A stretch of DNA of 34,468 nucleotides from Bodo saltans (lineage: Eukaryota > Euglenozoa > Kinetoplastea > Eubodonida > Bodonidae), in the NCBI GenBank assembly GCA_001460835.1, contig CYKH01002245.1, forward strand, positions 1,253-35,720, read 5' to 3'. How positions within the stretch are numbered: the first letter of the stretch is position 1; every line of letters begins with the position of its first letter. The position numbers were made by a program, and so were the translations under genes. This document shows, piece by piece, positions 1,341-29,984 of this stretch. Under the pieces are notes generated by a model. That model saw only the letters and a list, made by a program, of their open reading frames with translations, made no database searches and had not been told where the DNA came from.

Positions 1341-1868
1341 TGTGCGTGTGACTGCGACCATCGATGTTGGGTGACTTCTTTGATGTGAAGGCGCCTTCTT
1401 CGCTCTTCTCCTTTTCTTCAGCAATACCTAATTTGCGATGAGTGCCACTTGTTTTGGTTTCAGTGGCTCGAAATTCGAATGTGCTCTTTTAAAAAAACAA
1501 AGCACGACACTCTTGTGGACCTATGCGACGATCAAACTTTTCGTCCACTCTCGCATCAAGAATAAAATACTATGTAGTTTCGCTTCCCTTTCTTGTTGCG
1601 AAACGACGGAACACTTCATGTTGCACTTCACCTACATTCTCAGGATCAAGGAGTTGCTAAGTAGTCTGACCCTTGGCTGAACTGCCACGCTCACGCTTGC
1701 TTTCTTTCTTTGACTTTCTGTCTTCAGCAACAAGGGTCAGAGAAACATCCATAGGTTTACGTACGTTTCGCCGGAGCCGAACGCTACACGTACTTTCACA
1801 AATGGCGATAAAGCCATTGCGCTTGACTGCTCCTCATGCATGCAATAGACACCTTGCTTTACTGAGAT
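1341..1868. other. Unassigned AT-rich spacer
   Basis: I see no convincing gene here. A short open frame at 1438-1680 begins with ATG but has no recognisable domain, and another at 1673-1873 is Arg/Leu-rich noise. The stretch carries several pyrimidine-rich runs (for example 1393-1420) typical of kinetoplastid spacers. Confidence 0.4.
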
Positions 1869-1905
1869 TCTAATCTTGTCCTCCGTTTTGCAACTTTTTG
1901 ACAAG
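1869..1905 (+). promoter_or_regulatory. Probable trans-splice acceptor for the 1917 ORF
   Basis: A pyrimidine-rich run containing CTTGTCCTCCGTTTTG and CTTTTTG is followed by AG at 1904-1905, only 11 bases before the ATG at 1917. This is the kinetoplastid spliced-leader acceptor arrangement and supports the short ORF downstream. Confidence 0.45.
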
Positions 1906-1916
1906 GAAAAAGACAT

Positions 1917-2225
1917 ATGCTGCGTCTTTCGCTCAAGTCACTCTCCGTCATCCGTGCGATATCACTTGTCGCGCCTATCAGCGGCCAATCCTTCGTGGAG
2001 GCTCGTCGATTGTCTTCGTCATCAAAACTCAACGCTCAAGATGTCGACACATCGAAGCTGAATCACATGTATTGGGATGACGATGTGCTCCTCCCATACT
2101 TGCTGAGTATGATGGATGAATTTGGTGATGAATTTGGGGGTGAGTCATTGAACTTTGTACCTCCCAACGATTCTAACCTCCTACAAAATGAGTTCCTGAA
2201 GCAAGAACAAGTCAGGCAATCTTGA
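1917..2225 (+). CDS. Small putative mitochondrial protein
   Basis: This ORF of 102 codons starts with ATG just after a plausible splice acceptor. The first 38 or so residues are rich in Leu, Ser and Arg and lack acidic residues except near VEARR (MLRLSLKSLSVIRAISL...), which fits a mitochondrial presequence. The rest is acidic, with a conspicuous YWDDDVLLPYLLSMMDEFGD stretch. I recognise no family. The split between a basic amphipathic N-terminus and an acidic C-terminus is the main reason to treat it as real. It lies between a pseudogene and the acid phosphatase gene. A chance ORF cannot be excluded at this length. Confidence 0.45.
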   Translation: MLRLSLKSLSVIRAISLVAPISGQSFVEARRLSSSSKLNAQDVDTSKLNHMYWDDDVLLPYLLSMMDEFGDEFGGESLNFVPPNDSNLLQNEFLKQEQVRQS

Positions 2226-2382
2226 TTCGGTGATTATTTTGGGCTCCTTCTCGACTGCCCGTTTGGAGAAAGGGTTGCGAGATGCGTGAAGTCGTCATCA
2301 CAAAAAAATTATGCAACAAGATGTTTTTAACGTTTCATTAATGAAGAGGAGATAAATGCATTACTCTTGTATTTGCCCCACA

Positions 2383-2420
2383 CATCTTTCCGTTTTTCTT
2401 CAACCTTTAACACAACCAAG
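2383..2420 (+). promoter_or_regulatory. Probable trans-splice acceptor for the phosphatase gene
   Basis: The pyrimidine-rich run CATCTTTCCGTTTTTCTTC is followed by AG at 2419-2420, giving a short 5' leader of 26 bases before the ATG at 2447. This supports that start codon. Confidence 0.55.
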
Positions 2421-2446
2421 AAACGATTGGGTTTTACAACACGTTA

Positions 2447-3886
2447 ATGCATCAACACATACACCGAATTGCCCTTGTGGCACACTTATTTTTTTGTGCC
2501 GCAGCCATTTCTCCATTTCATGTAGCGGTTGTGCATCGCCACGGTGCACGCAACACGATTGTCAACGTGAACCAAAGCGGTGTTTGCCCCTCGTTCCACG
2601 CCCCAAATGGAGGCTGTGGGACATTGACAGTCGAAGGAAAAGATATGCTGTACCACCTTGGGCTTTTTCTTGGGAGTTCCTACGGTGCCCATGGTGGACT
2701 GTTTGAGGAAGCCATTCACTCCTCGTACGATTCCACGAGATTTGTCTCGCGCTCCACTGACGTTGGCCGTACCATCCAAAGCGGCTCAGCGATGATTCGC
2801 GGGTTGTTCTCGTCCCTCGAAGGAACGCCCCAACGAGCGTACCCGGTGCTGCACAACCGGCCAACTAGCCAAGATGTTGCCTTGTTGGTGTGGAATGGCA
2901 ATCCCTCGGTAGTTCTGTGGATGGATATCATGCAAGATGATCTGCTTCAGTTTCTTAATCAACACACTTTAGAGCTTTTCGAAGGGAACACCACATTGCT
3001 CGAGGAGATTGGGAGGGAAATCGGTCTGTTAGATGAATGCACGCCGTCCGACCCAGAGCGATGGGCCCCGTTTCAATGTGGTCTTGACATCCAAGATGCA
3101 GTAAATTGTGCGCTCTCCGCTGGATTCGCAGCTGAGAGGTATCCGACGGGCGTGGCGAACTTTGAACAGCTTACGAAAATTCTCGAGGATTACAACGCCT
3201 ACACAATGTGGGGAATCGACAATATGGAAAATGGTGGGAAGTACCAAGCTGCAACGGGGACACTGGGCTTCGTGTTGGCTCAAGAAATCATTGAGACTGG
3301 TGTCGCTGCTGCTGCCGCTGCAAGAACAACATCGTCGCCATATGTATTGCTCAATCATTACAGCGGGCATGACACGACGCTGATGCCACTGTGGATGACG
3401 CTTGGGAATGATTCGTTGACCAATCCCCTGTTTGGTGCAGCCATGATTTTTGAATTCTATTTCGTGTCCGCCGACGACGACAGCAGCCACTCTGACAGTG
3501 ACGTTTGGGTTCGCGCTCGAATCGGTGCGCCTGGTCAGCTCCCGGGTGACCATAACTACACATTTGAGTGGTATCAGCTGTATTGCGTCAACACCGACGG
3601 ATCGACGTATCGGCCTGACGCCGAGATGGGCTGCCCACTCGCGGATTGGAATGCCTTTGTTCAACTGCAAGGCCCATCCATCAACATCCCAAATGCTGGA
3701 GCTGGTGGTGCGTCTTGCTACTACGATGAGGCGTGGATGGCAAGTGTGAATTGTACACCACAAGATACGGTCAGCACCACCAGCGACCCATCATCAAAGA
3801 TTTGCCGAGACTTTAGGACCAACTGCATAAATGCGTGTGGCCAACATCATGCAATGACGTCGCACCTTGACTGTGTTGCAATTTAG
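2447..3886 (+). CDS. Secreted histidine acid phosphatase
   Basis: This is a 479-residue member of clade 2 of the histidine phosphatase superfamily, which removes phosphate from monoesters through a phosphohistidine intermediate. The N-terminus (HRIALVAHLFFCAAAIS) is a signal peptide. It is followed by the catalytic RHGxR motif in VVHRHGAR (R31, H32, G33, R35). The second family signature, His-Asp, is at H308-D309 in YSGHDTTLMPL. Cysteines cluster near the C-terminus (CRDFRTNCINACG), consistent with a disulfide-bonded secreted enzyme. No C-terminal hydrophobic segment is visible, so unlike the membrane-bound acid phosphatases of trypanosomatids it is probably released into the flagellar pocket, a food vacuole or the medium. 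The ATG follows a short spliced leader region. Substrate is unknown; a digestive role in a bacterivore is inference. Confidence 0.9.
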   Translation: MHQHIHRIALVAHLFFCAAAISPFHVAVVHRHGARNTIVNVNQSGVCPSFHAPNGGCGTLTVEGKDMLYHLGLFLGSSYGAHGGLFEEAIHSSYDSTRFVSRSTDVGRTIQSGSAMIRGLFSSLEGTPQRAYPVLHNRPTSQDVALLVWNGNPSVVLWMDIMQDDLLQFLNQHTLELFEGNTTLLEEIGREIGLLDECTPSDPERWAPFQCGLDIQDAVNCALSAGFAAERYPTGVANFEQLTKILEDYNAYTMWGIDNMENGGKYQAATGTLGFVLAQEIIETGVAAAAAARTTSSPYVLLNHYSGHDTTLMPLWMTLGNDSLTNPLFGAAMIFEFYFVSADDDSSHSDSDVWVRARIGAPGQLPGDHNYTFEWYQLYCVNTDGSTYRPDAEMGCPLADWNAFVQLQGPSINIPNAGAGGASCYYDEAWMASVNCTPQDTVSTTSDPSSKICRDFRTNCINACGQHHAMTSHLDCVAI

Positions 3887-3959
3887 TTTTTGCCGATCCA
3901 CATTCCATTTTCCGTAGAATGAGGAGAGCCAGCGGTTCTTAACCAGTGAGAACAATCAA

Positions 3960-3990
3960 CTTTTTTCTTGGTTCTTCACTCCACTCCAAG
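3960..3990 (+). promoter_or_regulatory. Probable trans-splice acceptor for the giant surface-protein gene
   Basis: The tract CTTTTTTCTTGGTTCTTCAC continues with CTCCACTCCAAG, ending in AG at 3989-3990. It is a better acceptor than the weaker TTTTCCGTAG at 3908-3917. Using it places all sequence upstream of 3990 outside the mRNA and makes 4036 the first ATG. Confidence 0.55.
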
Positions 3991-4035
3991 AATAAACAGA
4001 AAACAGCCACACGAGCACAAAGAATAGGCACGATC

Positions 4036-7000
4036 ATGAAATCACTTTGTAAAAGTGGGCACAGTCACGATCTAAAAAAATCAGTCATCACAACAGGTAC
4101 TATCCTTCCGACGAGGTTGTTACTACTGTTACCGCTCCTTTTGCTGTCGCGAGTGGAGAAAGCGACGGTGGGCGCTAGTGCATCACCTCTTGCGTCGTGC
4201 ACTACGGCAACAGAATCATCTCTGTCTCTACTCGCGCTACAATGGACAAACGCAGCATTGATAGAGTATGTGTACCCTCCTGCGGGCACCACCCTTCATG
4301 GTGGTCCTGCAGGCTCGTTTTTATACACCACTGGAGTTTCCACATCTTCACCAACCACTTCTCCGGCTGTTTGCTCGTGGTCAGTAGGGACTGAGCCTCA
4401 GCTCGCCCTTCTGTCAACATCCTCATCATTCATCACAACGTGGAACGCAACATTTGCACAGTGGGACGAAGCGTTCTCCAAACTCAAGAACGTTACCTCC
4501 ATCGATGGAGTTACCGGCTCTACAGCTCAATCTTCATCCTCACCGTTGGCGAATACTTCCATCATGAGCACCGGCACGGTGCTACTCCCATCAGAACTAT
4601 GTTTCGCGAAGCCTTCGATTGCAACTACACCCAACAACGCATCGGCGTTTTGCGTGGCATCGCTAAGTTCCTCAAACACTCTTGGCTGCTTATTAGACCC
4701 TGACAATGTTATCCAGAACATCACCACTTCGACCGTCGCGGACTACTTGAACCGAGTGGTAGCTCAGCGGGCATTGTCCCGTCGATGGTTTTCTGCCTCG
4801 ATTGATTTTGCTATGGAAGCTCAACAGGCCTATGCGTTCTATTCATCAACAGCTGCAAGCGTTGCATCGTCGGCAACCGTATCCAACGTATCTGCAGCAG
4901 AGAGAGATTTAGTACTGCGCGGTATCGCCTCGTCGCTCCAGCCATTGCTGGAAGCACACTTCATCGACACTCTCACACAAAAATGGCAGTGGATCGAGTC
5001 GCTCATTGCCACAAGTAACCTTGCGTTTCTTTCTGCGGCTTCGTCCACCAGCACGACGTCTGACTGCCCAACTGAATTTCTGTCAACGTGGATGACCGCA
5101 TCCAGTGTTTCGATGGGCATCAGCATCGTGGAGGCTGCGCTGGGGACCGCAGTGTCACTTCTTCTTGCTGCGCAAAGCGACATGCAAGTTCGTGTGCGAA
5201 CGCAATGCGTGTTGGAAACGTATGCCGTTGCTCGCTTCCTTGAAGAAGATCTTCCGGTGTTCGTGACGACGTCCCTGCAGCCCCAAGCAAGCACGTGGAC
5301 GGCAACGACGTTGATGACGCTCGCCAACTTACAGCTCGCCACTAACGTAGGTCGACTTGAGAATATCATCTCCACCCGTCTGACGCTATCAGCAGTGCTA
5401 GCGATGCTGAACTTGCTCCCATCGTCGCCGTCGGGTGCAGCGACCTTCTCGCCACCAGTGGCGCTTGTTGCGCAATGTCTCGCCGATTGGTTTTCTAACA
5501 TCACAATGGCCACTTCTTACATCCCCAGCGCCGATGATTGGAGCGCATCATCTTCATCATCTGCCGCTGGTGCCTTCCTTCAGTGGCTTCGACAAAGCTC
5601 ATCTACAGGTGTGTCGCAGTGCTTCACCCTCCAAACATCCAGTGTGACGCCCATCGGCTATCAGGGCGAGGACAGCAATGAGCCCGTGGAAGACATGGAA
5701 TGGTTTCTGGACTTCACAAATGCAACGAACTCAATTTCCTTCGAGCAAATTACCGTCGGTAATGCGACCATTTCAAGCGCGATTCGTGGTTCACTGCGGA
5801 CAAGCGGCATTCCAAGGCTCCGCTCAGTGAGCGACCAAGGCCTGGTGCCGGTGCTGTTTACGTTTCTTATGCCGCCGTCAGCGATTGCATCAACGTTAGG
5901 GTCGTCCAGCGCAGCCGTTATTGCCGCGTCCACAACCTCTGCGATTCGATCTGCCGGCCTTCCCCTGGGAGGTGGTGGGTCCCTTTTCGGAAACGTGTTC
6001 GCTCTGATAAACCCACCCGTTTCAGATCTTCGACCTCTTCCTGCCGCCACCACCACGGCATCATCTGTGTCCTCCTTCATTTGGAACGACACAGTGCAGG
6101 GTGGCCCTGTGGCTTCAAATAGCTGTGGCCCAGGATATCTTCAACTGCGAGACTACGACACAAACGACACCATCTGTGAGCAGTGCCGCAATGAACCACC
6201 AGCGATGCTCACTACTTCCACAACTCTCTCCTCAACATACCTCTTTTGCACTGGTGACGGCTATGCGCGTGCGTGCGTGAACAAACCAGGCGGAGTTGGC
6301 AACGACAATATTTCTGCTTACATCCCGCAAGGTAATTCGCAGCTGAATTCATCAGACTGCCCATTTTATTGTCGCAGCTATTATCAGTACCGCAACGGAA
6401 GCCGATGTGTGGATACCGGCGTCGGGAAGTACGCGAATTCCAATACGTCGCAAGATGACTGCGCCACACATCCAGCGCTTTTCTCACAAGTAGTGAGTGA
6501 CCTTATCGTGACACCGGCAACTGTTTCCGCAGATTTTGTGAAGTGGTCAGCGTACGTTTCGCCTGGTGCGTTTCAGGCTCCGAACAGCTGCGCATTTTCT
6601 GTGCGGCGGCGAATGATTTCCGAACGATTTGATGTGACTGGTGGGCCAGGCAGTGCGGCGAGCACTGCTGTGGGAGGAAGAACTCTCGCTAACACGTTGC
6701 TGTGGTGCAACAGAAGCTCACAGAATTTTGGGCGAGGATCGCCAGCGCCTCCAATTGGGCTACAACTCCGTTTGCAAGGGTTGTTTACCGCGTCAGATGT
6801 TTTGGCTGCTCATCGAAAGGCAGGAAGCACAAGACTGGCGTTTCAGCTTGCTGAAGTATTCGGCGAAAACGAATCCATCGCCGCGTCATCCACATCATCA
6901 GCATCATCTAGCGAAGCAGACACAACAAGCGGCGGTTGGAGCTGGTACTTGGTGACTTCTATTGACGTGGTTTCGAGCACAGCGCTGCCTTCCACCGTCT

Positions 7001-10000
7001 CAATGCAGTTGTGGTTCAATGCGTCGTTTGTTGCCTCTGGGAACCCAACGGCATTTGCCAACGCCCCGCATTCTCTCTTGTTCTTTTCGTTCAACAAAAC
7101 TTATTCGTGGTCAACATTTGTCACAACAGTGAGTGCGGCAACTGGAAAAAAGACCTTTTCAGCTGGCGTAAGTCTGAACCTGGAGTCAGGGCTCTTATCA
7201 TTCTCACTTGACGGCAAGGTCCTTGGACCAGTGCAGAGTATCCCATGGACGACGTCGCTCACCACAGCTCCATGCGTGACCAATTTCAGCGCCGCTTCCG
7301 CACAAAAAGGCAAAACGCTTCGACTGTCCATCGGTGGCTGGCTGGCATCGTTTGATTCTCCTCTAGGAATGGTGGTCACACGACTTGGCATATCTGATGA
7401 GCTTCCCCAAAGCTTTTACTTCCTCCCTATCAACCTCACGCGGGTTGGATTCAGCGGTGTTCCGTTCGGTCGGTCTCATTTCACATCCTCAACAACTGGC
7501 ACATCCGCGACAACAACCAAAGATGTTTGGTCTGAACTTGTCGTGCTTCCCTCCGTGGAGAACGTCACCGGCGGTTCGTCATCCTCATGCAACGCAACAA
7601 CAACAGCAAGCAGCAGCAGTTTTGTGCTACGTACTCGCGTCGACGATGGATCCGCCTTCGCAGCCACGCCGCCCAATCGAGTCAATCATCTCGTTTACCT
7701 GAACAGTCTGTCCTCCCTCTTCCAGCAAAGCAACGTGACATGGAACGGTGTGTGCCGTGGTGGAACATATCAAAACAACTTTGGGAGCCAACTCCTTCGA
7801 TCATCATGCACTGTTTGTCCGCTAGGCTCAATGTGGCAGACAACTGCCTCGGTATTAAACAGCAGCACGTCGTCGTCGTCGTCATCAACGAGCTCGTCTT
7901 CGTCGCTGGCGCAGCGCTGTTCTTGCTTGTCGACTCGAGCTCTCGTGAATAACACTTGCATACCGTTGAGTCCAGCGTACGGCACACCAACTTTTGTGGA
8001 AAGCAACACCACCACGTCAATCACCGATGGATCAGCGATGATCCTGAACACAAACAAACGTGAGAAGACGTTTCTGTTCGCTGTCGCAATGAACACAACA
8101 TTAGCAACGACTTCTTCAGCAACGACTGCTAATTCCACTTCAACAGCAGCATCGTTAATTCTGAACGGGACACTTGAGACCACTGTCTCCTGCACCTCGA
8201 CTACCGTATTTGGAGTGCCCCTGACTGAAATTGTCATTGACTGCGACGACCCATTGAGAAAGACCCTGTGCTCGGTATACGTGACGCTGACTGTCGACTT
8301 CAGCAACAGCGCCACTTCGTCGTCGTCTGGGGCAAAAGGAGACCTTTGCCGGATTTCAATCCGTACGACTCAGTTGTATCGGTATCCCAGCAGCACCATC
8401 GCTCGACAGTACACCTTCTGGCCAAAGCCCCCAGCTGTGGGACAAGGGAATCTGAACACCGTCAACGGAACAATTCTCGCCGATACGGCGACAAATATTT
8501 CCTTGTCAGTGAGAAACTATTCGTTCTACAGCACTGCGTCGACTTTTTTCCTTGCACAAGCAGCCAATACGCTGTTCACCAACAGCAGCAGCAGTGGTGC
8601 TAGCAGCAGTGTTGACTCACCCACCCTATCACTTCTGCAAGCGATGGCCAGCAGTGCTACGGCAAGTTGTCAAATGGTTGTTCTGCTATCGTTTCACACA
8701 TCGCCACCTCCTCCTGCGATCAGCACCACATCCTCATCATCATCGTGGTCATCGGCGTCGACACTCGTTCCAATGACGTCGCCTGTCATGTTCGTGTTCC
8801 CTGCCACGACCGCAGTCAACGGCATGACGTTAGACTTTTCGCTTTCCACGTCGTCCACCTCCGTCTCTCCGTTTTCAGGAAACGTGGCAGTTCTCAATAT
8901 TTCAATCACATCGTCCGCTGGGTACTTTGCGCCCAGCGACTCCCTTGTTGTCTACGTGGTATCGGCGTCTTACGTTCAAGGGCAGCTCACACCGGTACCT
9001 AATTCTGCTGCGAACGCCCTTGCACACCCTGCGGTGATCGCGCTGGGAATCTTGACGCTTTTTATGACCTCTGGGGCCTTCGTGTGGACGATTCGGCGTC
9101 GCCCACCGAGCTGCTTTGGAAAGCTGTGCCAGCCCCAAGACGAGAAATCGCCCGACAACAGCGATTCGGCGTCGGCATCATCTGAAACGACGTATGATGA
9201 TGATGATGATGATGATGATGAGTTCTCATCGAGCTCAGAGAGCGGAGGAGGAGCTGGTGAACAATGGGACGACCAGCTTTCTCGAAGAAGCGCGGCTTCC
9301 AGAGCTTCCGGGGCTTCCGCAGCAGTAGCACAACAGCTACCTTCGTCCGGTGGTGGTGGTCGTGGGGTAGGCCCAAGTGCGGCAACCACAATATCATCAC
9401 AGCATTCGAATATCCCAAGTCAATCCGCGACTCGTGTACCACCACAACGGTCATTCACGCACTCTCCTTTTGGTAGACAGCAAGAAGACACCACTTCAGT
9501 GACGCCGCAGCAACATCGAGACATACAACCATCGGCACCCACGATTGACATTGTTGGTGACGCGCACACAACATTTTCTAGTCATAGCGCTGGCGGCAGT
9601 GTATTTTATGACATGTCGTTTGACCGCTCAGGAGGTCCACTCGCTCCTCCTCCCGCTCCAAGGGGACGAGGAGCCGATCCTTCGTTTATGACCAGCAGTA
9701 GCCACGTCACGATGTCAGGCAGCATAGATCACGAGCTCAGTCGATCTGCACGCAGTCGTTGGCGTCAAAGAACTATCGCAGCTCAAAGTGGAAGTGACGA
9801 CCTTAGAAGGACCGTTCCACTCGATGACGCAAGCATAGCTGTGCAGGCCCCGGTTGAAAACAATCATCGATGCATTGCAGAGCCTGCCCTGTTGAGTAAC
9901 AATGCAAGCGACAAACAACAAAAACGAAGAAGCCATTCAGGAGCAACAGACAAAAAACATGAAACAGACAAACCCGGAACGAAAGAGGAACGACGGAAAA

Positions 10001-11064: not shown

Positions 11065-11652
11065 TTGTTCGCCGCGTTGTAGACAGTCCTGCACAAATTT
11101 TCATCCGCGTGAGACTTTTCGTATGAGAGATATCAGTTGTTGTTTGTTGCCGACCGAATGACCAGAAGAGAGCTTTGATTTTTTTGACGTCTGCTCTTCA
11201 TCTCTCGTGTTTGTGACGGGATTGTTTCCTTTGATGTGAGTATGTGTGTTTGTGTCTTGTCAGACTGTCAAAAAAGAATTTAGCTTCAATTATTCCTTGC
11301 CAACGATATCACCTGACCGTCCTATCGCATTTTTCAATTTTGTTGCTGTATCGTACATTTCAGCTTAGGGGAAAAACAAGAAAAAGGAAGTGAGCATCAT
11401 CTGAAGAAAGAGAAACGAGAACAATCAACACCAGCAGGGTTTTTGCTGCATCGCTCGACCAGTATCCTTTTTGTTTTTGCTCCACGACGACTCGAGAGTA
11501 GACGTAGACGACCAAAGTGTTATCTGCGCGCTCCGAATATTTCTCTGTCTCCCACAAAACATCCCAACGAAAAGTCGCGCACAACTGAGCAGAGAGTCAA
11601 AAGAGAGAAATACCGCATTTGGAAAGGAAAAAAAACAACAACAACAACAACT
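11065..11652 (+). promoter_or_regulatory. Spacer and 5' leader of ATG4, with splice acceptors
   Basis: The 588 bases between genes hold no coding region. Candidate acceptors are the AG at 11362-11363 after ACATTTC and the AG at 11461-11462 after TTTTTGCTGCATCGCTCGACC. No ATG occurs between 11363 and the ATG4 start at 11653, so the leader is free of upstream starts even if the first acceptor is used. The leader ends in an (ACA)n run (11635-11650) directly before the start codon. Confidence 0.5.
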
Positions 11653-12666
11653 ATGGAACTCATGATGCTCGCAAAAGACATCATGCAGAGGAAGCAGAAC
11701 CCCATCACGTACCCGTGCTACATCCTCAACACACGCGTCGACACCGAAGAAGAGCTCAACAGTGAACTCAGCAAAATTTTTCTCTTCACCTATCGATCTG
11801 GTTTTGACCCGCTGCCCAAGAGTTCGTGCAGAACGGATAAAGGGTGGGGATGCCTCGCACGGTCGTGTCAGATGATGATCGGCCGAATGCTTGCCATGCA
11901 CTTTCGCACAGACTTAAGATTTGCGTACTTTCGCGATGTCGACGAGCCTGATGCACCCTTTAGTATTCACAATTTAGTGCGAGGGATGTTGAATCAGAGT
12001 TTGACATTTCAGCCGAATTTCTGGAGTCCCACGCAGGGCTGCGAAGCGATTCGCTATGCCGTGGCAGCCGCAGTCAATCGAAAGCTTGTCAAGACTCCCG
12101 TGAGCGTACTGGTCGCAGAGGGTGGCACCGTCAGCCACCGAGATGTAGAATTTCGTTTGAATGAAATGGGGTCTGTCATGCTGCTCATTCCTGTTCGCGT
12201 TGGCATCAAACGGCATATCAATCAGCAAACGTTTATGGCCCTAGAACACATGATGCAGACCCGGCTTAGTTTAGGCGTCATTGGCGGAGTGCCTAGGAGA
12301 AGTTATTATTTAGTGGGGACATGTGGTCAGCGGCTGCTGTACCTCGACCCCCACTCCGTCAAACCCGCGATGATTCGCGCAGAGGATGTGAGCTGTGACG
12401 TAGAAATTGCAAAAACGCTGCCCGCTGTGTCGTGGGATCGTATTGACACTTCGTTGCTGTTTGGATTTTTCTTGAAATCACACGACGATTGGATTGAGTT
12501 TTCTGCGCACGTCAAGAAGAACACCGAGTTGTGTGGGATCGAGCGGTTGTTCTACTTGGACGTCGGCGATGGCCGCCGTCCTGATGCTTCAGACTTGCTC
12601 AACAACGGACAAAGAGCAGAGGATGCAATTATGACGTGGTCTTCTAGCGAAGAAGACGACAGGTAG
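11653..12666 (+). CDS. ATG4: Autophagy cysteine protease ATG4
   Basis: ATG4 (peptidase C54) trims the C-terminus of ATG8 to expose its glycine and later releases ATG8 from phosphatidylethanolamine on autophagosomal membranes. This 337-residue protein shows the family signatures in order: YRSGFDPLP, then the catalytic-cysteine box GWGCLARSCQMM with C67, then GGVPRRSYYLVGTCG and the Asp-Pro-His box LDPHS with D232 and H234. These three form the Cys-Asp-His triad. The common RxGQM after the active site is changed to RSCQM. Start: the open frame continues 210 bases upstream, but only through non-ATG codons. The first ATG follows an ACA-repeat leader and begins a sequence typical of the family. 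The C-terminus is short and acidic (SSSEEDDR). Trypanosomatids carry two ATG4 paralogues; I cannot tell which this matches. Confidence 0.93.
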   Translation: MELMMLAKDIMQRKQNPITYPCYILNTRVDTEEELNSELSKIFLFTYRSGFDPLPKSSCRTDKGWGCLARSCQMMIGRMLAMHFRTDLRFAYFRDVDEPDAPFSIHNLVRGMLNQSLTFQPNFWSPTQGCEAIRYAVAAAVNRKLVKTPVSVLVAEGGTVSHRDVEFRLNEMGSVMLLIPVRVGIKRHINQQTFMALEHMMQTRLSLGVIGGVPRRSYYLVGTCGQRLLYLDPHSVKPAMIRAEDVSCDVEIAKTLPAVSWDRIDTSLLFGFFLKSHDDWIEFSAHVKKNTELCGIERLFYLDVGDGRRPDASDLLNNGQRAEDAIMTWSSSEEDDR

Positions 12667-19905: not shown

Positions 19906-19943
19906 CTCTTTTTTTTTTTTTTTCTATGAAATGTGTTCATGAG
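19906..19943 (+). promoter_or_regulatory. Probable trans-splice acceptor for the DENN-protein gene
   Basis: A CTC plus fifteen-T tract ends at 19923. The first AG after it is at 19942-19943. An ATG at 19926, in frame with the gene, lies between tract and AG and so would be removed from the mRNA. The next ATG in frame is 20061, which I take as the start. The 328 bases from 19733 to 20060 hold no other gene. Confidence 0.55.
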
Positions 19944-20060: not shown

Positions 20061-23000
20061 ATGGCCCAGCCGCACATACCCCAGCTGCATCTACCAAATC
20101 AGCACCGTGAACAACCTTCATTGTCCTCAGAGGGTACTTCCGCCGGTGATGCTGCTGATGACACTTCCACTGAACAGTCTTTGTCCCCGTCCAACATCAT
20201 CAGCGTATCCTACGCTCGGTTCGACACTCGGCTCGGTAACACCATCGCGTACACGTACCCTCCGAGTGTGGACTTGGCCTCGTTGGTCGACGCGAAGAAT
20301 TTGCAGGACTACTGCTTTCCGGACGGTGCTCATGGCAACATGACCGATACCGTCTGCGCGACGCTGCGGCGCCGACCATGTTCGTCTGCAAGTGGTCCGA
20401 GTGAGCAGCAACAACTTCATTCCACTTCCGATGAAGGCTCAGATGCGAATGTTGACGACAGAGAGGCATACTCCGCGACGTTCGGCGCGGTCCCAGAGGG
20501 CGGCCCAATTTTCGCGTTTTCACTGTACCATCAAAAACGAGACGCTAGTGCTGACAGAGGAGCCACTCAACGAGGTATCCTCATTTTATCCTCTCAGCCA
20601 TTGTGCTACGCCCTCCAGCAGCTCGCCAAGTTTTTCTGCGTTCCATTCTTTGACCTGGTGCCGATGTCCGAAGTTGCTGCTCATGAAATGTTTGCGCGAG
20701 CGTTGCATGTCTCGCTTGCTGAAACATTTTCTGTCAAAACTGGGCGAGCGGAGTGGAATGTTCAACCAAAGAGTCGCATTACGGAGGCCGTTGATTGCGC
20801 ACTGGACAAACGTGGCACAATGCTGATGTCGATGGATAAATTGCAATGCGACCAACGCGTCATCCGAATTCAAATGGAAGTTGTCCGTAATGATCCCGTC
20901 ACAGACCCACACTTTGTTCGGAGGCAGGTGGGAGATGCAAACCCTCAGCGACGACAACGACACACCTCTACCGGTGATCACGTTCATGATTCACACAACG
21001 GTGATAATGACGACAGAGACGATGTTCTATTTTCATCAGAGCTTGTCTTGCCTGTGCCCTTGCCACGAAATGGTGCAACGTTAACGCAGCAACTTGCATT
21101 TGGCGCGTCTCTCAAGAAACTCATGGCATGGTTTGGTGGTAAGATCGCCATCATTCACTGGTGCATTCCTGTGATGATGATTGGAGACTCTGCAAGCGAT
21201 GTGAGTGACGCGGTGCGAGCGTGCATTTTGTTAATGCAGCCGTTTGACATCGACGTCGTGCGGTTTGCGCCGTACTGCACGCTGGAGCACGTGGACTACT
21301 TTTCTGCAAATATGAGCTCGTCCGTCTACCTTGCACTCGGCGCGACCAATGCCTACGTGTGCCACAAAGATTTTCCTGGCGCCGCAAAGTGTGATTTGCG
21401 TAATGGGAAAGTAACGTTTGCTGACAACGGAAAGTTAGCCTCGCTGAAACATATGCCGAAGACTCATCCCAAATCCTTTGATGATTTATGCGCTGCTGCA
21501 ACGGATCCGGCGGTGGCAGAGTGTTACATCCGAGCTCGTTGCGCAAGGTTTAACGTGGCGATCGCGAAACAAGTGCTTACTGCACGGAGCGGAAATTACT
21601 ACGATGCACTGTGTCGCATTTCAAATATTTTAGAGCAACCGTTAGATGCCTCCGTGCGAGGGACGATACGCCACTGTGTGCCAAGGGGAGGCGGCGGATT
21701 AAATGACGGCGGTGATCGAGCAAGTGTTCCCGCAGACGTATCGACAACATCTGCAGCTGCGAACGACGACGGCAGTGGCGCCGCACTGGACCGTGACGCA
21801 ACCGATAGTGGTTTCTTACTCGTGGATGATGAAACGACAACTGCGAACCGATTTGCATCCCCCGCAGCAGCGCTACCACGTAACGTGACAGGTTCGCCAC
21901 CAAGCTCCCCTACGCGAAGTGAGCCGTCAGAAGCACTCCCCGCTGTCGATGTCGATGCCAACGATGAGACAACTGCCACAACACATGCTGCTGGTAGTCC
22001 CGACATCGTCGAACAAATGCTTGCCGGCATTGAAGATTCTCCACTGTCTACCGGCGGCAGTCATCATCCCTTGACGAAGGAAGATGGAGCAACAACATCA
22101 ACCCCCGACGCGCGACGAAACAAACTTCTGAGAGATCTGTCCTCCGCCATCAACATGTTCGATGAATACTCCAAGAGGAACCACCAGATGATCGTCGATG
22201 TTGACAAGTGGTACAAAGACATGTGTCACGTGATTCACACGATCGCAGGCGAGAGTGAACCTTGGCATGAGGCGATGGTGAGCGAGCTAGCATCCTTCTC
22301 GGCCATGAATGAGCTCCCTCCTGATCCAAGCGTGTGCTACTGTCCGTCGGAGTTGACAGGGGGCTGCACGTCACAGCAGCAGTGGGACCGCACGCAACGA
22401 CTTCGCATCGTGCAAGACTACAAGGAACGTGTGTTCTTGATGGTCGATGCCATTAGCAAAAACAATTCACGAGCACTGTTTCGCAAAACAAACCGATACA
22501 TGGCGGACTTCTTTCATTTCGCTGGATCTGAAGGTTACGCCATTCCCGCCCAGGTGCTTCTTCATCATACCAGCTGTAAAACTGTTTGGTACGTGCAGAA
22601 GACCAAAGTTTCCGCCGGAGGTTCAATGTTTCTCACCAAGAACTACCTTCTGTTCGAAGCAGGTTCGTTTTCTATTCGAAAACGACATCAAATTGTGCCC
22701 TTCGATTGCATCAGGTCCGTTGCCAAGGACCGCACCTCCGCATTTTCAACGTCTGTGAAAGTGCTGATCGACATCCCTGTGGATGCGGCAACCACATCAG
22801 CAGCAACCTCTCCAGCGGTTCTGTATCATCAGGGGCTGCTCGTTATCACAGACGTGCACGCATCGGAGGGGTTCTACCAACTTCTCCACGCGTTGACACA
22901 CCGACAACGACGTTTGGTGAAACTCATGGAGCACTTTCCTGCCCCCCACACGATCCCCAGTAGAATTCCTCTGAACGCGTCTCCATCGTCGTCCATAGGA

Positions 23001-23861
23001 AGCGGCGCGGCGCCCTCGATGTTCGTTCCTCGAACGATCCCTGCAGGGTTGTACTCGGCGCAAGAGCAATGGTTCGTGGATGAAGTTTGGGAGAATCAGC
23101 GGCTGTACCCAATCGTGGGATGGTCCTCGAAACTTCTCCTGGGAGACCCTTCCGCGTTCTCAGATTTTTCATGCACGCACACAATTGACAAAGACTCTTG
23201 GAGAATTCCTGATGGATTCCAAAAAGTGTATGACTGGCGCCTCGCCAAGGAAGCCCGTGAAATCGACTCAGAACTTGCAGTCCTTAGCGACGAGCGGCTG
23301 TTGCAGTACAGCAAACATCCCAATCCGTTTCAAAAGCTGGCGTCAACCTCATCGTCGTCACGAAGGGGTGGAGGTAGTGGCCTCGCGGCGTCTGTCCGAG
23401 CGGCAGTTGCGGGGCTTGGAAACAGTAGGTCAGAGACTGCTGGACATCAAGATGCGGACGAAACATTTAACACATCAGGGGATCGATCACCACGCGGAGC
23501 CCGTCCGGCTCATGCATTCCCGCTGCCAGCAACCACACCGGCAGCAGCGGCGCCAAGAGCATCAATCGAGTGGCTCTATTCCGCATCGTGGGCAAGTGGC
23601 ACTGATATTTTCCGCTGCGAGCCGTTCCTTGGCGGCACAATGCGACGCCGCTTATGGGTGCGAGTTCGCAAACTTGTTCCGGCGTCACAACTGTTCCAAG
23701 ATGCAGCAGGTGCTGCTGCTGGAGGTGAGCAGGAATCATCCAATGGGGCACTGTTGCGCCAGCGAACTTTGTCAACGTCCTCCGACGATGTTGTGGAATC
23801 CCCGCGCCACATTGCTGTTGGCGTGATGACACCAGAGACTGAGGAGACCGACGAGAAATAG
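20061..23861 (+). CDS. DENND6-like Rab exchange factor with GRAM and dysferlin-type domains
   Basis: This protein has 1266 residues. Residues 44 to about 560 form a DENN module of DENND6 type: an opening FDTRLGNTIAYTYPP, then RGILILSSQPLCYALQQL, and WCIPVMMIGDSASDVSDAV followed by a long core ending LALGATNAYVCH. DENND6 proteins activate Rab GTPases (Rab14 in animals) in endocytic recycling. A Ser/Thr-rich disordered insert and a helical block (about 680-827) come next. Residues about 829-953 look like a GRAM/PH-like lipid domain (GGSMFLTKNYLLFEAG). A DysFN-like segment starts near 1003 (VWENQRLYPIVGWSSKLLL), and a DysFC-like one near 1166 (WLYSASW, MRRRLWVRVRKLVP). DysF domains occur in dysferlin, fungal peroxins and TECPR1. 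An alternative ATG at 19926 is rejected on splice-site grounds. The fused architecture is unusual. Confidence 0.8.
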   Translation: MAQPHIPQLHLPNQHREQPSLSSEGTSAGDAADDTSTEQSLSPSNIISVSYARFDTRLGNTIAYTYPPSVDLASLVDAKNLQDYCFPDGAHGNMTDTVCATLRRRPCSSASGPSEQQQLHSTSDEGSDANVDDREAYSATFGAVPEGGPIFAFSLYHQKRDASADRGATQRGILILSSQPLCYALQQLAKFFCVPFFDLVPMSEVAAHEMFARALHVSLAETFSVKTGRAEWNVQPKSRITEAVDCALDKRGTMLMSMDKLQCDQRVIRIQMEVVRNDPVTDPHFVRRQVGDANPQRRQRHTSTGDHVHDSHNGDNDDRDDVLFSSELVLPVPLPRNGATLTQQLAFGASLKKLMAWFGGKIAIIHWCIPVMMIGDSASDVSDAVRACILLMQPFDIDVVRFAPYCTLEHVDYFSANMSSSVYLALGATNAYVCHKDFPGAAKCDLRNGKVTFADNGKLASLKHMPKTHPKSFDDLCAAATDPAVAECYIRARCARFNVAIAKQVLTARSGNYYDALCRISNILEQPLDASVRGTIRHCVPRGGGGLNDGGDRASVPADVSTTSAAANDDGSGAALDRDATDSGFLLVDDETTTANRFASPAAALPRNVTGSPPSSPTRSEPSEALPAVDVDANDETTATTHAAGSPDIVEQMLAGIEDSPLSTGGSHHPLTKEDGATTSTPDARRNKLLRDLSSAINMFDEYSKRNHQMIVDVDKWYKDMCHVIHTIAGESEPWHEAMVSELASFSAMNELPPDPSVCYCPSELTGGCTSQQQWDRTQRLRIVQDYKERVFLMVDAISKNNSRALFRKTNRYMADFFHFAGSEGYAIPAQVLLHHTSCKTVWYVQKTKVSAGGSMFLTKNYLLFEAGSFSIRKRHQIVPFDCIRSVAKDRTSAFSTSVKVLIDIPVDAATTSAATSPAVLYHQGLLVITDVHASEGFYQLLHALTHRQRRLVKLMEHFPAPHTIPSRIPLNASPSSSIGSGAAPSMFVPRTIPAGLYSAQEQWFVDEVWENQRLYPIVGWSSKLLLGDPSAFSDFSCTHTIDKDSWRIPDGFQKVYDWRLAKEAREIDSELAVLSDERLLQYSKHPNPFQKLASTSSSSRRGGGSGLAASVRAAVAGLGNSRSETAGHQDADETFNTSGDRSPRGARPAHAFPLPATTPAAAAPRASIEWLYSASWASGTDIFRCEPFLGGTMRRRLWVRVRKLVPASQLFQDAAGAAAGGEQESSNGALLRQRTLSTSSDDVVESPRHIAVGVMTPETEETDEK

Positions 23862-25937: not shown

Positions 25938-28900
25938 ATGAGTCAGTCTGGATCTCCCTCATCTGTTCCCTGGCGATTCCGAGGAGCAGCAAACGCCGCA
26001 TTCAGCGGAGTGACCGCCATTGAGTTTGATCGCACATGCGAACTCCTTTGGCTTGGCGACGCGTTCGGGCACGTGACTTCCTTTGCCTTGTCAACACCGT
26101 CTGCAACCACATCAAGCCAGGATGAAATTGCGTGGTCCACGTATTCCTCATTCCGGCCGTTTGTGGATACACCGTGTCAGCACATTCAATTTCTGCATGA
26201 TTCATTGATCGCCATGGCCACGAACAACAAGATTCGCGTGACGAAGCGTGGCGGAGTCACCGTGCTGAATTACGATGCTCCTACCGCACTTCAGCGTCGC
26301 ATCGGTTTCTTTCAAACAGATTACGACGGCGGCGCAATGTACCTCGCTGGTGAAACCCCTGGCGTCCAGCGCATTACGTTAGCTCGGCCCGATGAATCTG
26401 AGCAGACAGCATCGGCTGAGGGAATCACCTCGGCCCTGCGCTTTGGTGATGATTGGGTAGCCGTGGGCACCACCGGTGGTAGTTTGAGCCTCCGACATCC
26501 GCTGACATTAGAACCGATTGCCTCCATCAAGCCCTTCGCCTCCCGCATCACTGCCGTTGCAGGCAGTGGCCAACACATCTGGGCCGCATCTTCTGAACGA
26601 AATCTTAGCAACGTCGTCAAAGTCTTTGACACGCGTCAAATGAGCGAACCGTTGAATGTGATTTCTGGTTTGCAAGGCGGCGCAGCTGCATCACTGCGCG
26701 TGTACACCGACCATGCGGCGATTGAGCGAGCATTCTTAGTAACCTCTCAAGGGTTCCACATGCTGCAAGTCGACGCCCCAATGCCGACGTACAGTTCGGT
26801 TGGGATGGAGGGCGGCTCCATCACTGCCGGCGCCGTGACTTCTAGTGGCATCGGCGCGGTGTTAGGAAACGACAAAGGTTACCTTCTCACCATGAGCAAC
26901 GCTGCATCGACTGAAGCGTTTTCGATTCACTCCCAGCCCCGTCAGCCACCCCAACCGAAGGCACACCACGACAACCACCACCATGCGTGGTCGCAGAACG
27001 CCACCAACAGAGGACAGCTGGACTCCGGATTCGATTATGAATATCCGGAAGGAGAATTGTGCTCCAATTGGCCCTCCAATGATTACATGCTTCTCTCTGC
27101 GGAGTCCAAGTTGAAGTTCATGAACATTCGCGTCCCTCAAGGTCAAGTGATGGTCAACACATGGAATTTGACTCGAGCAGATTTGTATGCACCAGACCCC
27201 AAGGACAAGGTGAACATTATCATCCCGAACCCATACCCGTACAATAGCGACTTGGGCGATGACCCTAGCAAAGTGCAAACACTCCTTCAAGACTTACGCA
27301 AGTCGAAGCGAAACGTCACCCGCGCCAAGGGAGAGACCACTGGTCTTTATTCCAAACAAGAGGAGGCACTGCAGGCGTGCTATGGAGGATCGAACCAAAC
27401 CGCGTTCCAGTGGGGCGCGTACAACCCCACTAGGGAAGTGATTGGCATCGACAACTCCACCCCAGAGTCGTGGGTGTCACCGGTGCTGCAAAGTTTGTAC
27501 TTATGCCATGCACCACACTACCCGGTGCGTAAAGCGTTTGTGAATCACGTGTGCAAGAAGGAGTACTGTATTGCTTGTGAGGTAGCGATTATCTTTACCA
27601 ACATGATGATCACCTCGTCGTCGAATTCCACAGCGGCTGCGTTAGGAAGTAGCGCGGCGTCGTTGCTTGCGCCAGTGGTTCAGCCAGCAGGATTGCTTCG
27701 GTGCATGACGCAGCTTCCTCTGTTTGTGGAGGCCGGTTTGTTCGTGCCGACCGTGGATCGCGACCATGCTGTCAGAAAAATTCACTTGACGCAAAAGTTG
27801 CTTCTGGAAGTTATTGACCGCGACCTGCGCATTGCCCCAGAGTTCAAATTCATCCCGCACGCTCGCCCGTCGAGCACCAACACTAGCGTAGCAGGAGCAG
27901 CAGTAGGTTTTACTGCAGCATCGCCCATTATGAGCACTCATTTGCCGTTCCTGGCTGCGTCGTCGGATGGAACGCTATCTCCTGGTATGGCGCTTTCAAG
28001 TCCACTGACAGGCTTTCCCATGCCTGGACTGCCATCGTTGTCGACAACGCCACCGCTGGCGCCGCTTCTTGGCAATAACCCCTTTGCTATTCCCTCCCTA
28101 CAGCAACAGCCACAAGCGCCGGTTGATCTTGACGGGCTGATGGTGACTTACTTTGGCACAGAGTTCCAAGTCTCGTCTCATCGCAACGCAGCTCACGGCG
28201 GGGCCCCTCCAGCGGACATCCCACCCAGATTCTTTTGGGAGGTGCCCGCGTCCGCGGTGAAGGTGGATGAAGGTCTTCAACATCTTCTGAAGCAGTTAGA
28301 ATCGTACAATGGCGACCCCGTGCAGATCAAGCGCTTGCCGCCGATTATCATTCTACTTCTCAACCCTGAGCACGGCAACCTCAAGCCCCCGTCAAGCCTT
28401 AAATTCTCACGCCCGCCCAAGGAGGAGTTCAACTATCTGCTGAGCTCCAACGTTCTGCACCTAGCGGAGGATGTGGACGATTCTGGTCTCTTCGTTGGGC
28501 ACCATCAGACTGGTGACCGCGAAAACTTTGTCCTTGTCAACGATTACTTAGTGTCGACACCGCAGCCGGAGGAGCTGCTCGAGGCGTCCATCCCAGCGAC
28601 CACAACGCATTCTGTGGTCTTGACATGCTACGCACTGGACTCGTTCCGCAGCAATCCAAAATATCAATCCAAAGATGTGGATGCCACTCGACCGCCGAAT
28701 TTGTTCGACACGCTCGGCCCCCTTCTGATTCACGACGATTTTGCAGCACCCCTGCAAAAATTATGGCGGCCCTCCCCCGACGGCGATGATGTGGCGCCTC
28801 CTCCGTTTCCGCAGAGGTTCCAGTCTGCCATCACGTCGCACCTCGACATTCAGCCGGGTGACATCGTCGCGATTGACGCTGAATACGTTGTCCTCGCATG

Positions 28901-29984
28901 GGGAAACAAACGACCAGATGAGCCGGAGTGGATTCGTCGACAGCGCAAGCCGCACATGTCCCTAGCACGTGTGAGCTGCATTTTGAGCGGCAAAGACGGT
29001 GATGAGAGAACGATCATGGATGATTACGTCCACACGCCTGAAGATGTGCTAGACTACGTGACGCTGTACAGCGGTATTCACGAAGGAGATCTTGACCCCA
29101 CGCGCTCCACGAAGAACTTGACAGCGTTGAAAGCCACGCAATATAAACTTCGAGCTCTGGTGGACAGAGGTGTGAGATTTGTTGGGCACGGACTTCCTCA
29201 AGATTTCCGTGTGTGCAACGTTGTTGTCCCCCCGAGTCAAATCATCGACACACTAGAGCTGTTCCACCGCTCCGGCCACAGAAAACTCTCCTTACGTTTC
29301 TTAGCGTACTTAGTGCTCGGCGAACGAGTTCAAGAAGATGAACACGACAGTGTGGAGGATGCCAGAACGTCGTTGAGGTTGTACCGCAAGTACCAGGAGG
29401 CGCAGCTTCTTGGTGTGTTCGAGACGCTGATGGACCACATCATTGCAAGGGGGCACGAAACGAATTGGTACGTACCAAGCTCTGCCATTTCCTCGCCTCC
29501 TCCTCCAGCGTCATCCTCGTCTGCGGTTGCGGATAGTAGCCCGAGTGGGTTGGGATTATTATCCTCGCCCCTCGAAGAGACTGTGTTGACTTCCACCAAC
29601 GACATTGGACTGGAAGGTGAGGGTGGTGACGACAGCGACAGCTCGACAACAGATGACAGCAGTCACAACGCAGCCCGAGTGCTTACGCTCAACCTGGGCG
29701 TCGATCTCGACGGTACGGGCGGGGCCAACGGAGTGTCGTCGTCATCGGCAGCAGTCCAAGCGCTCCTTGGTTCTCCAGGCAAGCTGGCGTCAGGATCTTC
29801 GTCCACTCTAAAGCCAACGACGCAGGGGGACTTTTCTTCACACGACGAAGAAGATGCAAGAAGAGACGCCAATAACTCCACGACGAGCAGCACCAACTCA
29901 GATGATCAACAGATGGAATCTGACTCTCCGTTCATTCCCACACGAGAGCCGACGGGCAACCGTGAACAAGGTGGAGATTTCTAG
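25938..29984 (+). CDS. PAN2: Poly(A) nuclease deadenylation subunit PAN2
   Basis: PAN2 is the catalytic subunit of the PAN2-PAN3 deadenylase, which shortens mRNA poly(A) tails in the cytoplasm. The 1348-residue protein has a WD40-type N-terminus (to about residue 330), a linker with FDYEYPEGELCSNWPSNDYM, and an inactive ubiquitin-hydrolase-like domain. That domain has the family phrase VLQSLYLCHAPHYP and CKKEYCIACEVAIIF but no catalytic cysteine box. The RNase D/DEDDh exonuclease follows. All five catalytic residues are present: D980 and E982 in VAIDAEYV, D1089 in GHGLPQDFRV, H1136 and D1141 in HDSVEDA. About 180 residues after the nuclease core are Ser/Asp/Thr-rich and look like an added disordered tail. 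An insert of low-complexity Ser/Pro/Ala sits inside the hydrolase-like domain. The enzyme should be active. Confidence 0.95.
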   Translation: MSQSGSPSSVPWRFRGAANAAFSGVTAIEFDRTCELLWLGDAFGHVTSFALSTPSATTSSQDEIAWSTYSSFRPFVDTPCQHIQFLHDSLIAMATNNKIRVTKRGGVTVLNYDAPTALQRRIGFFQTDYDGGAMYLAGETPGVQRITLARPDESEQTASAEGITSALRFGDDWVAVGTTGGSLSLRHPLTLEPIASIKPFASRITAVAGSGQHIWAASSERNLSNVVKVFDTRQMSEPLNVISGLQGGAAASLRVYTDHAAIERAFLVTSQGFHMLQVDAPMPTYSSVGMEGGSITAGAVTSSGIGAVLGNDKGYLLTMSNAASTEAFSIHSQPRQPPQPKAHHDNHHHAWSQNATNRGQLDSGFDYEYPEGELCSNWPSNDYMLLSAESKLKFMNIRVPQGQVMVNTWNLTRADLYAPDPKDKVNIIIPNPYPYNSDLGDDPSKVQTLLQDLRKSKRNVTRAKGETTGLYSKQEEALQACYGGSNQTAFQWGAYNPTREVIGIDNSTPESWVSPVLQSLYLCHAPHYPVRKAFVNHVCKKEYCIACEVAIIFTNMMITSSSNSTAAALGSSAASLLAPVVQPAGLLRCMTQLPLFVEAGLFVPTVDRDHAVRKIHLTQKLLLEVIDRDLRIAPEFKFIPHARPSSTNTSVAGAAVGFTAASPIMSTHLPFLAASSDGTLSPGMALSSPLTGFPMPGLPSLSTTPPLAPLLGNNPFAIPSLQQQPQAPVDLDGLMVTYFGTEFQVSSHRNAAHGGAPPADIPPRFFWEVPASAVKVDEGLQHLLKQLESYNGDPVQIKRLPPIIILLLNPEHGNLKPPSSLKFSRPPKEEFNYLLSSNVLHLAEDVDDSGLFVGHHQTGDRENFVLVNDYLVSTPQPEELLEASIPATTTHSVVLTCYALDSFRSNPKYQSKDVDATRPPNLFDTLGPLLIHDDFAAPLQKLWRPSPDGDDVAPPPFPQRFQSAITSHLDIQPGDIVAIDAEYVVLAWGNKRPDEPEWIRRQRKPHMSLARVSCILSGKDGDERTIMDDYVHTPEDVLDYVTLYSGIHEGDLDPTRSTKNLTALKATQYKLRALVDRGVRFVGHGLPQDFRVCNVVVPPSQIIDTLELFHRSGHRKLSLRFLAYLVLGERVQEDEHDSVEDARTSLRLYRKYQEAQLLGVFETLMDHIIARGHETNWYVPSSAISSPPPPASSSSAVADSSPSGLGLLSSPLEETVLTSTNDIGLEGEGGDDSDSSTTDDSSHNAARVLTLNLGVDLDGTGGANGVSSSSAAVQALLGSPGKLASGSSSTLKPTTQGDFSSHDEEDARRDANNSTTSSTNSDDQQMESDSPFIPTREPTGNREQGGDF

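Follow-up and report, generated by a model that had tools for sequence, protein, structure and literature searches.

A protein of the kinetoplastid Bodo saltans with a divergent Avl9/DENND6-type DENN module, a probable GRAM domain and a dysferlin-type domain

The stretch of Bodo saltans DNA analysed here (34,468 nucleotides of contig CYKH01002245.1, hereafter the window) contains a gene at 20061..23861 for a protein of 1266 residues, in which a DENN module, a probable GRAM domain and a split dysferlin-type (DysF) domain follow each other in one reading frame. All coordinates given below without a contig name refer to the window, and all features described there lie on its forward (+) strand. 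The fusion of the three parts is real; what is new about it is the combination, since the parts themselves are known. The DENN module appears to be a divergent representative of the Avl9/DENND6 type and has kept an arginine, R166, at a place corresponding to the arginine finger of Avl9-type GAPs, which somewhat favours a role as GTPase-activating protein (GAP) for Arf/Arl proteins. The eukaryotic sequence searched was that of the Bodo saltans genome alone (29.3 Mb in 934 contigs). This genome contains a gene for KMP11, a marker of kinetoplastids (E-value 1.1e-51), for which 14 control genomes gave no match.

Within the DENN module, residues 44–200 (20190..20660) make up the longin (uDENN) part. 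It matches the Pfam family Avl9 (PF09794) over residues 48–191 with an E-value of 2.6e-4 and a score of 20.1 bits, below the cut-off of 22, while in phmmer residues 42–199 reach 35 bits against a DENND6-like paralogue from the same genome, L015. A tblastn-type search leads from the window protein to L015 with an E-value of 5.4e-9, and the reciprocal genome search from L015 leads back with an E-value of 3.3e-9. In addition, the structure matches of the low-confidence DENN model are headed by longin-DENN entries. Together these matches identify the N-terminal part as the longin domain of a DENN module. The putative cDENN/dDENN part (approximately residues 340–545; 21078..21695) is visible only in a multiple alignment with L015 and two further DENN proteins of the genome, L034 and L030; it has no Pfam match of its own, and its model is of low confidence (mean pLDDT 34).

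The original prediction had described the DENN module as DENND6-type and as a Rab activator. A phrase in common with DENND6 ('QKRD...RG..Q') is indeed present, but against a hand-entered human DENND6A sequence L015 and L034 score 126 and 91 bits, respectively, and the window protein 10 bits. The best DENND6 match in the genome for this query is therefore L015, and the window protein does not behave as the DENND6 orthologue; its DENN module reaches only 5–10 bits against the hand-entered sequences of its human Avl9/DENND6A relatives. L015 and L034 contain neither a GRAM nor a DysF domain. The window gene is thus best described, on the available alignments, as encoding a divergent Avl9/DENND6-type DENN protein, and neither the DENND6 label nor the role of Rab activator should any longer be assumed by default. 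L015 (G000:C370, ORF 362-2665), which is likely to be the DENND6 orthologue, has a Cys-rich N-terminal region that looks zinc-finger-like by eye (CGAC...CTSC).

The C-terminal DysF domain consists of two halves, DysFN (residues 1001–1070; 23061..23270) and DysFC (residues 1169–1208; 23565..23684), the latter carrying the motif W-x-Y ... RRRLWVRVRK. They are separated by a low-complexity insert of 98 residues (23271..23564), 70% of which are disorder-prone and nearly all of which have pLDDT values below 50. A profile built from eight DysF segments of the same genome, with the window left out, scores the window protein at 50.5 bits, whereas among 2000 shuffled versions of this protein the highest score is 5.9 bits. 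Scored apart, DysFN reaches 43.9 bits and DysFC only 6.0, the latter match being collinear with the former. In the structure model, however, the DysFC strand (model residues 504–516) lies in blocks with pLDDT values of 83–92 and aligns with TECPR1 jointly with DysFN, so that profile and fold agree on a DysF domain made of both halves. Of the eight stacked Trp/Arg positions that hold the long loop, as named for TECPR1 in the available portion of PMC10476172, six are kept in the window protein (W122, W138, R159, R161, R165 and R167). The position of W118 is occupied by a lysine, and that of W116 falls in a gap in the window protein and in six of the eight paralogue segments.

Between the DENN module and the DysF domain, residues 561–828 (21741..22544) form a linker of low complexity, followed from about residue 690 by helices, which are predicted with pLDDT values of 32–57. 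The next segment, approximately residues 829–953 (22545..22919), is probably a GRAM domain. Pfam GRAM (PF02893) matches residues 833–901 with an E-value of 9.6e-4 for the whole protein and 5.6e-5 for the trimmed segment, the score in the latter case being 23.4 bits, where the cut-off is 23.6. In the genome search for GRAM domains the window segment, with 23.2 bits, is the weakest of five places and passes the cut-off only together with its in-frame neighbours; one control genome, that of Bacillus subtilis, also gave a match below the cut-off. The segment is not resolved in the structure model. Domain and structure searches of the kind proposed with the original prediction recovered the DysF domain, by profile and by fold, and the longin part, with a borderline match for GRAM and no separate Pfam match for cDENN/dDENN. 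Elsewhere in the genome, the L030 locus (G000:C207, ORFs 1368-4538, 4721-6763 and 6986-8587) comprises an Afi1/SPA-type DENN gene, inside which a segment is repeated, to judge by eye, and directly after it two genes for GRAM proteins, one of them carrying a DHHC palmitoyltransferase domain.

According to a January 2026 preprint (PMC12803157), in the portion available, Avl9 and DENND6A were measured to act as GAPs, the former on Arf and the latter on ARL8B; their arginine finger (R111 of human AVL9) lies in the longin loop that connects strands 4 and 5. In SMCR8, another longin-DENN protein, Arg147 is placed in the ARF1 site by the accessible text of PMC8213707. In a four-row alignment of the window protein, L015, L034 and L030 with 289 gap-free columns, 16 columns are invariant, and R166 (codon 20556..20558) is the only arginine among them. 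It corresponds to residue 131 of the model (mean pLDDT 34), between the predicted strands 116–123 and 134–142. R166 also aligns with R111 of human AVL9 (hand-entered sequence), in a pairwise stretch of 0.6 bits that is not significant by itself, and a classical DENN protein of the genome, L033, has a gap at this position. An arginine between longin strands 4 and 5, as expected of a DENN GAP, is therefore present at the level of the residue only. Because this loop arginine is kept and Avl9 and DENND6A are reported as Arf/Arl GAPs in PMC12803157, an Arf/Arl GAP is the favoured function of the window DENN module, by a modest preponderance. The genome offers candidate substrates, with ten of 50 Arf-family matches scoring at least 120 bits.

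The module may, less probably, be a non-catalytic tether or scaffold, in which DENN would act as an effector of an active GTPase while GRAM and DysF hold the membrane. The strong drift of the DENN sequence, with its 5–10 bits to the human relatives, and the long low-complexity stretches would suit such a role; moreover, Avl9 is also described as a Rab8 effector in the consulted portion of PMC12803157, and the Pex30 DysF domain as acting at contact sites in that of PMC12101078. Against this, a mere tether would have no need of R166 and its loop, yet both belong to the most strongly conserved parts of the module. A Rab guanine nucleotide exchange factor (GEF) of the DENND6 type tied to two membrane sensors, as originally predicted, is less likely still. 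DENN modules are best known in that role, the fold matches include structures of DENND1A/1B-Rab35, and earlier work cited in PMC12803157 had DENND6A as a GEF for RAB14 and RAB34. However, the nearest relatives of the module are of the DENND6/Avl9 type, which the preprint, as far as available, reports as GAPs, with no RAB14 exchange found for DENND6A; with the finger arginine kept as well, the designation as Rab activator is probably wrong.

The reading frame is stop-free over 1266 codons from the ATG at 20061 to the TAG at 23861, in agreement with the original prediction, which also placed the DENN, GRAM-like and split DysF parts of this one protein correctly. Codon scores of the coding frame are positive in seven of seven segments (0.034–0.090), with a third-position G+C of 0.45–0.66 along the segments and no sign of a junction, although this test is weak because another frame in the DENN part scores equally (0.034). 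It is true that the combination is unusual and that no orthologue was obtained, but given the uninterrupted frame, the codon use and the other DysF fusions of the same genome, an assembly error that joined two genes is highly improbable. The frame contains another ATG farther upstream, at 19926, from which the protein would be 45 residues longer. The start at 20061 is preferred because a T-tract (19909–19923) and the first AG after it (19942–19943), which together form a likely trans-splice acceptor (19909..19943), extend downstream of that ATG.

What the DysF domain may read was compared with the 12 tip residues of TECPR1 (R76, W77, C84, L88, L89, S90, I142, D143, K152, K153, W154 and C157), the mutation of any of which abolished recruitment to sphingomyelin-exposing vacuoles according to the available text of PMC10476172. 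Only three of them (R76, L88 and L89) are kept in the window protein, in which K153 and W154 are replaced by F and L; the other eight DysF segments of the genome keep two to five. A TECPR1-like sensing of sphingomyelin is therefore unsupported. In the consulted part of PMC12101078, the Pex30 DysF domain binds phosphatidic acid, apparently via aromatic and basic residues at its tip, and the same lipid was bound by further DysF domains of the Pex30 family and by the inner one of human dysferlin. One side of the tip in the window DysF bears the residues R, L, L and L, and the opposite side F-L, so that membrane binding is plausible, whichever the lipid. Sphingolipid synthesis itself is likely in this genome, since it encodes a PAP2_C domain of the sphingomyelin-synthase type (71.3 bits; one of 14 control genomes likewise gave a match above the cut-off). 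Two PAP2_C matches (L056/L057, G000:C479:55146-56129) lie within one open frame of 1505 codons.

Two other DysF proteins of the genome resemble the window protein in their fusion to a larger functional part. L018 (G000:C15, ORF 2991-4505) combines an N-terminal DysF with a TBC-type Rab GAP domain (Pfam 2.5e-35) in which the IxxDxxR and YxQ motifs are kept. L016 (G000:C171, ORF 1794-5726) combines a VPS13 VAB domain (Pfam 8.9e-8) with DysF; at the end of its C-terminal part stand a DysF-like C motif and a single clear DysF domain. That one genome joins DysF to two different kinds of putative GTPase regulator is the most suggestive of these results and extends beyond the original prediction. Our literature search, which covered mostly open journals, found no report combining DENN with a dysferlin domain and none linking dysferlin and VPS13 in protists, which is weak evidence of novelty. 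Bodo saltans, Trypanosoma brucei and Leishmania major are among the organisms of a 2021 survey of PEX proteins, which in the part available names the Pex23 family and TECPR1 in fungi and metazoa (PMC8172628).

If the window protein is an Arf/Arl GAP, its GRAM and DysF domains would bind a particular membrane state and concentrate the DENN module there, and the concentrated module would switch off local Arf/Arl. The protein would then be a natural one-protein link between membrane-binding domains and an Arf/Arl off-switch, and would allow the 2026 proposal, by which Avl9/DENND6-type DENN proteins act as GAPs rather than as Rab GEFs, to be tested at a great evolutionary distance. It would also offer a way into DysF function outside animals and fungi; a 'DENN' annotation should then not default to 'Rab activator'. 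More tentatively, DysF might have become in this kinetoplastid lineage a portable tag that addresses switch-off enzymes and lipid-transport proteins to membranes, here the likely Arf/Arl GAP, the TBC Rab GAP and the VPS13-like protein. One membrane state, for example exposed or rich in phosphatidic acid, would in that case erase Arf and Rab identity together and call in lipid supply.

Among known systems, Avl9 and DENND6A (the 'DENN GAP' class, PF09794) share with the window protein a longin-DENN module whose corresponding longin loop contains an arginine, but differ from it by the low sequence scores given above; neither of them is known to contain GRAM or DysF. SBF1/SBF2 (MTMR5/MTMR13) also combine DENN and GRAM in one protein, whereas neither a myotubularin phosphatase nor a PH domain is found among the Pfam matches of the window protein; SBF1/2 are not known to contain DysF. 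In sequence as in fold, the C-terminal domain is best matched by the N-terminal DysF of TECPR1, but nine of the 12 sphingomyelin-recruitment residues of TECPR1, including W77 and W154, differ in the window protein, which has the 98-residue insert and no propeller among its Pfam matches. Ferlins (dysferlin, myoferlin) have the DysF fold in common with the window protein. Their DysFN and DysFC enclose a nested inner DysF, an arrangement with which the observed order of the ferlin domains agrees, whereas the insert in the window protein is of low complexity and no C2 domain is found among its Pfam matches. L018 likewise joins DysF to a GTPase regulator, but this is a TBC-type Rab GAP, and its DysF is N-terminal rather than C-terminal.

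Two adjoining DysF genes are present in L020 (G000:C698, ORFs 2539-4275 and 4549-6702), the first of which encodes two DysF domains and has a weak FYVE_2 match below the cut-off. In the window, the same strand also carries a gene for an ATG4-type peptidase (11443-12666; C54, 8.7e-49) and a PAN2-like gene (25938-29984; RNase_T 5.6e-11, with weak UCH_1 and PAN2_N matches).
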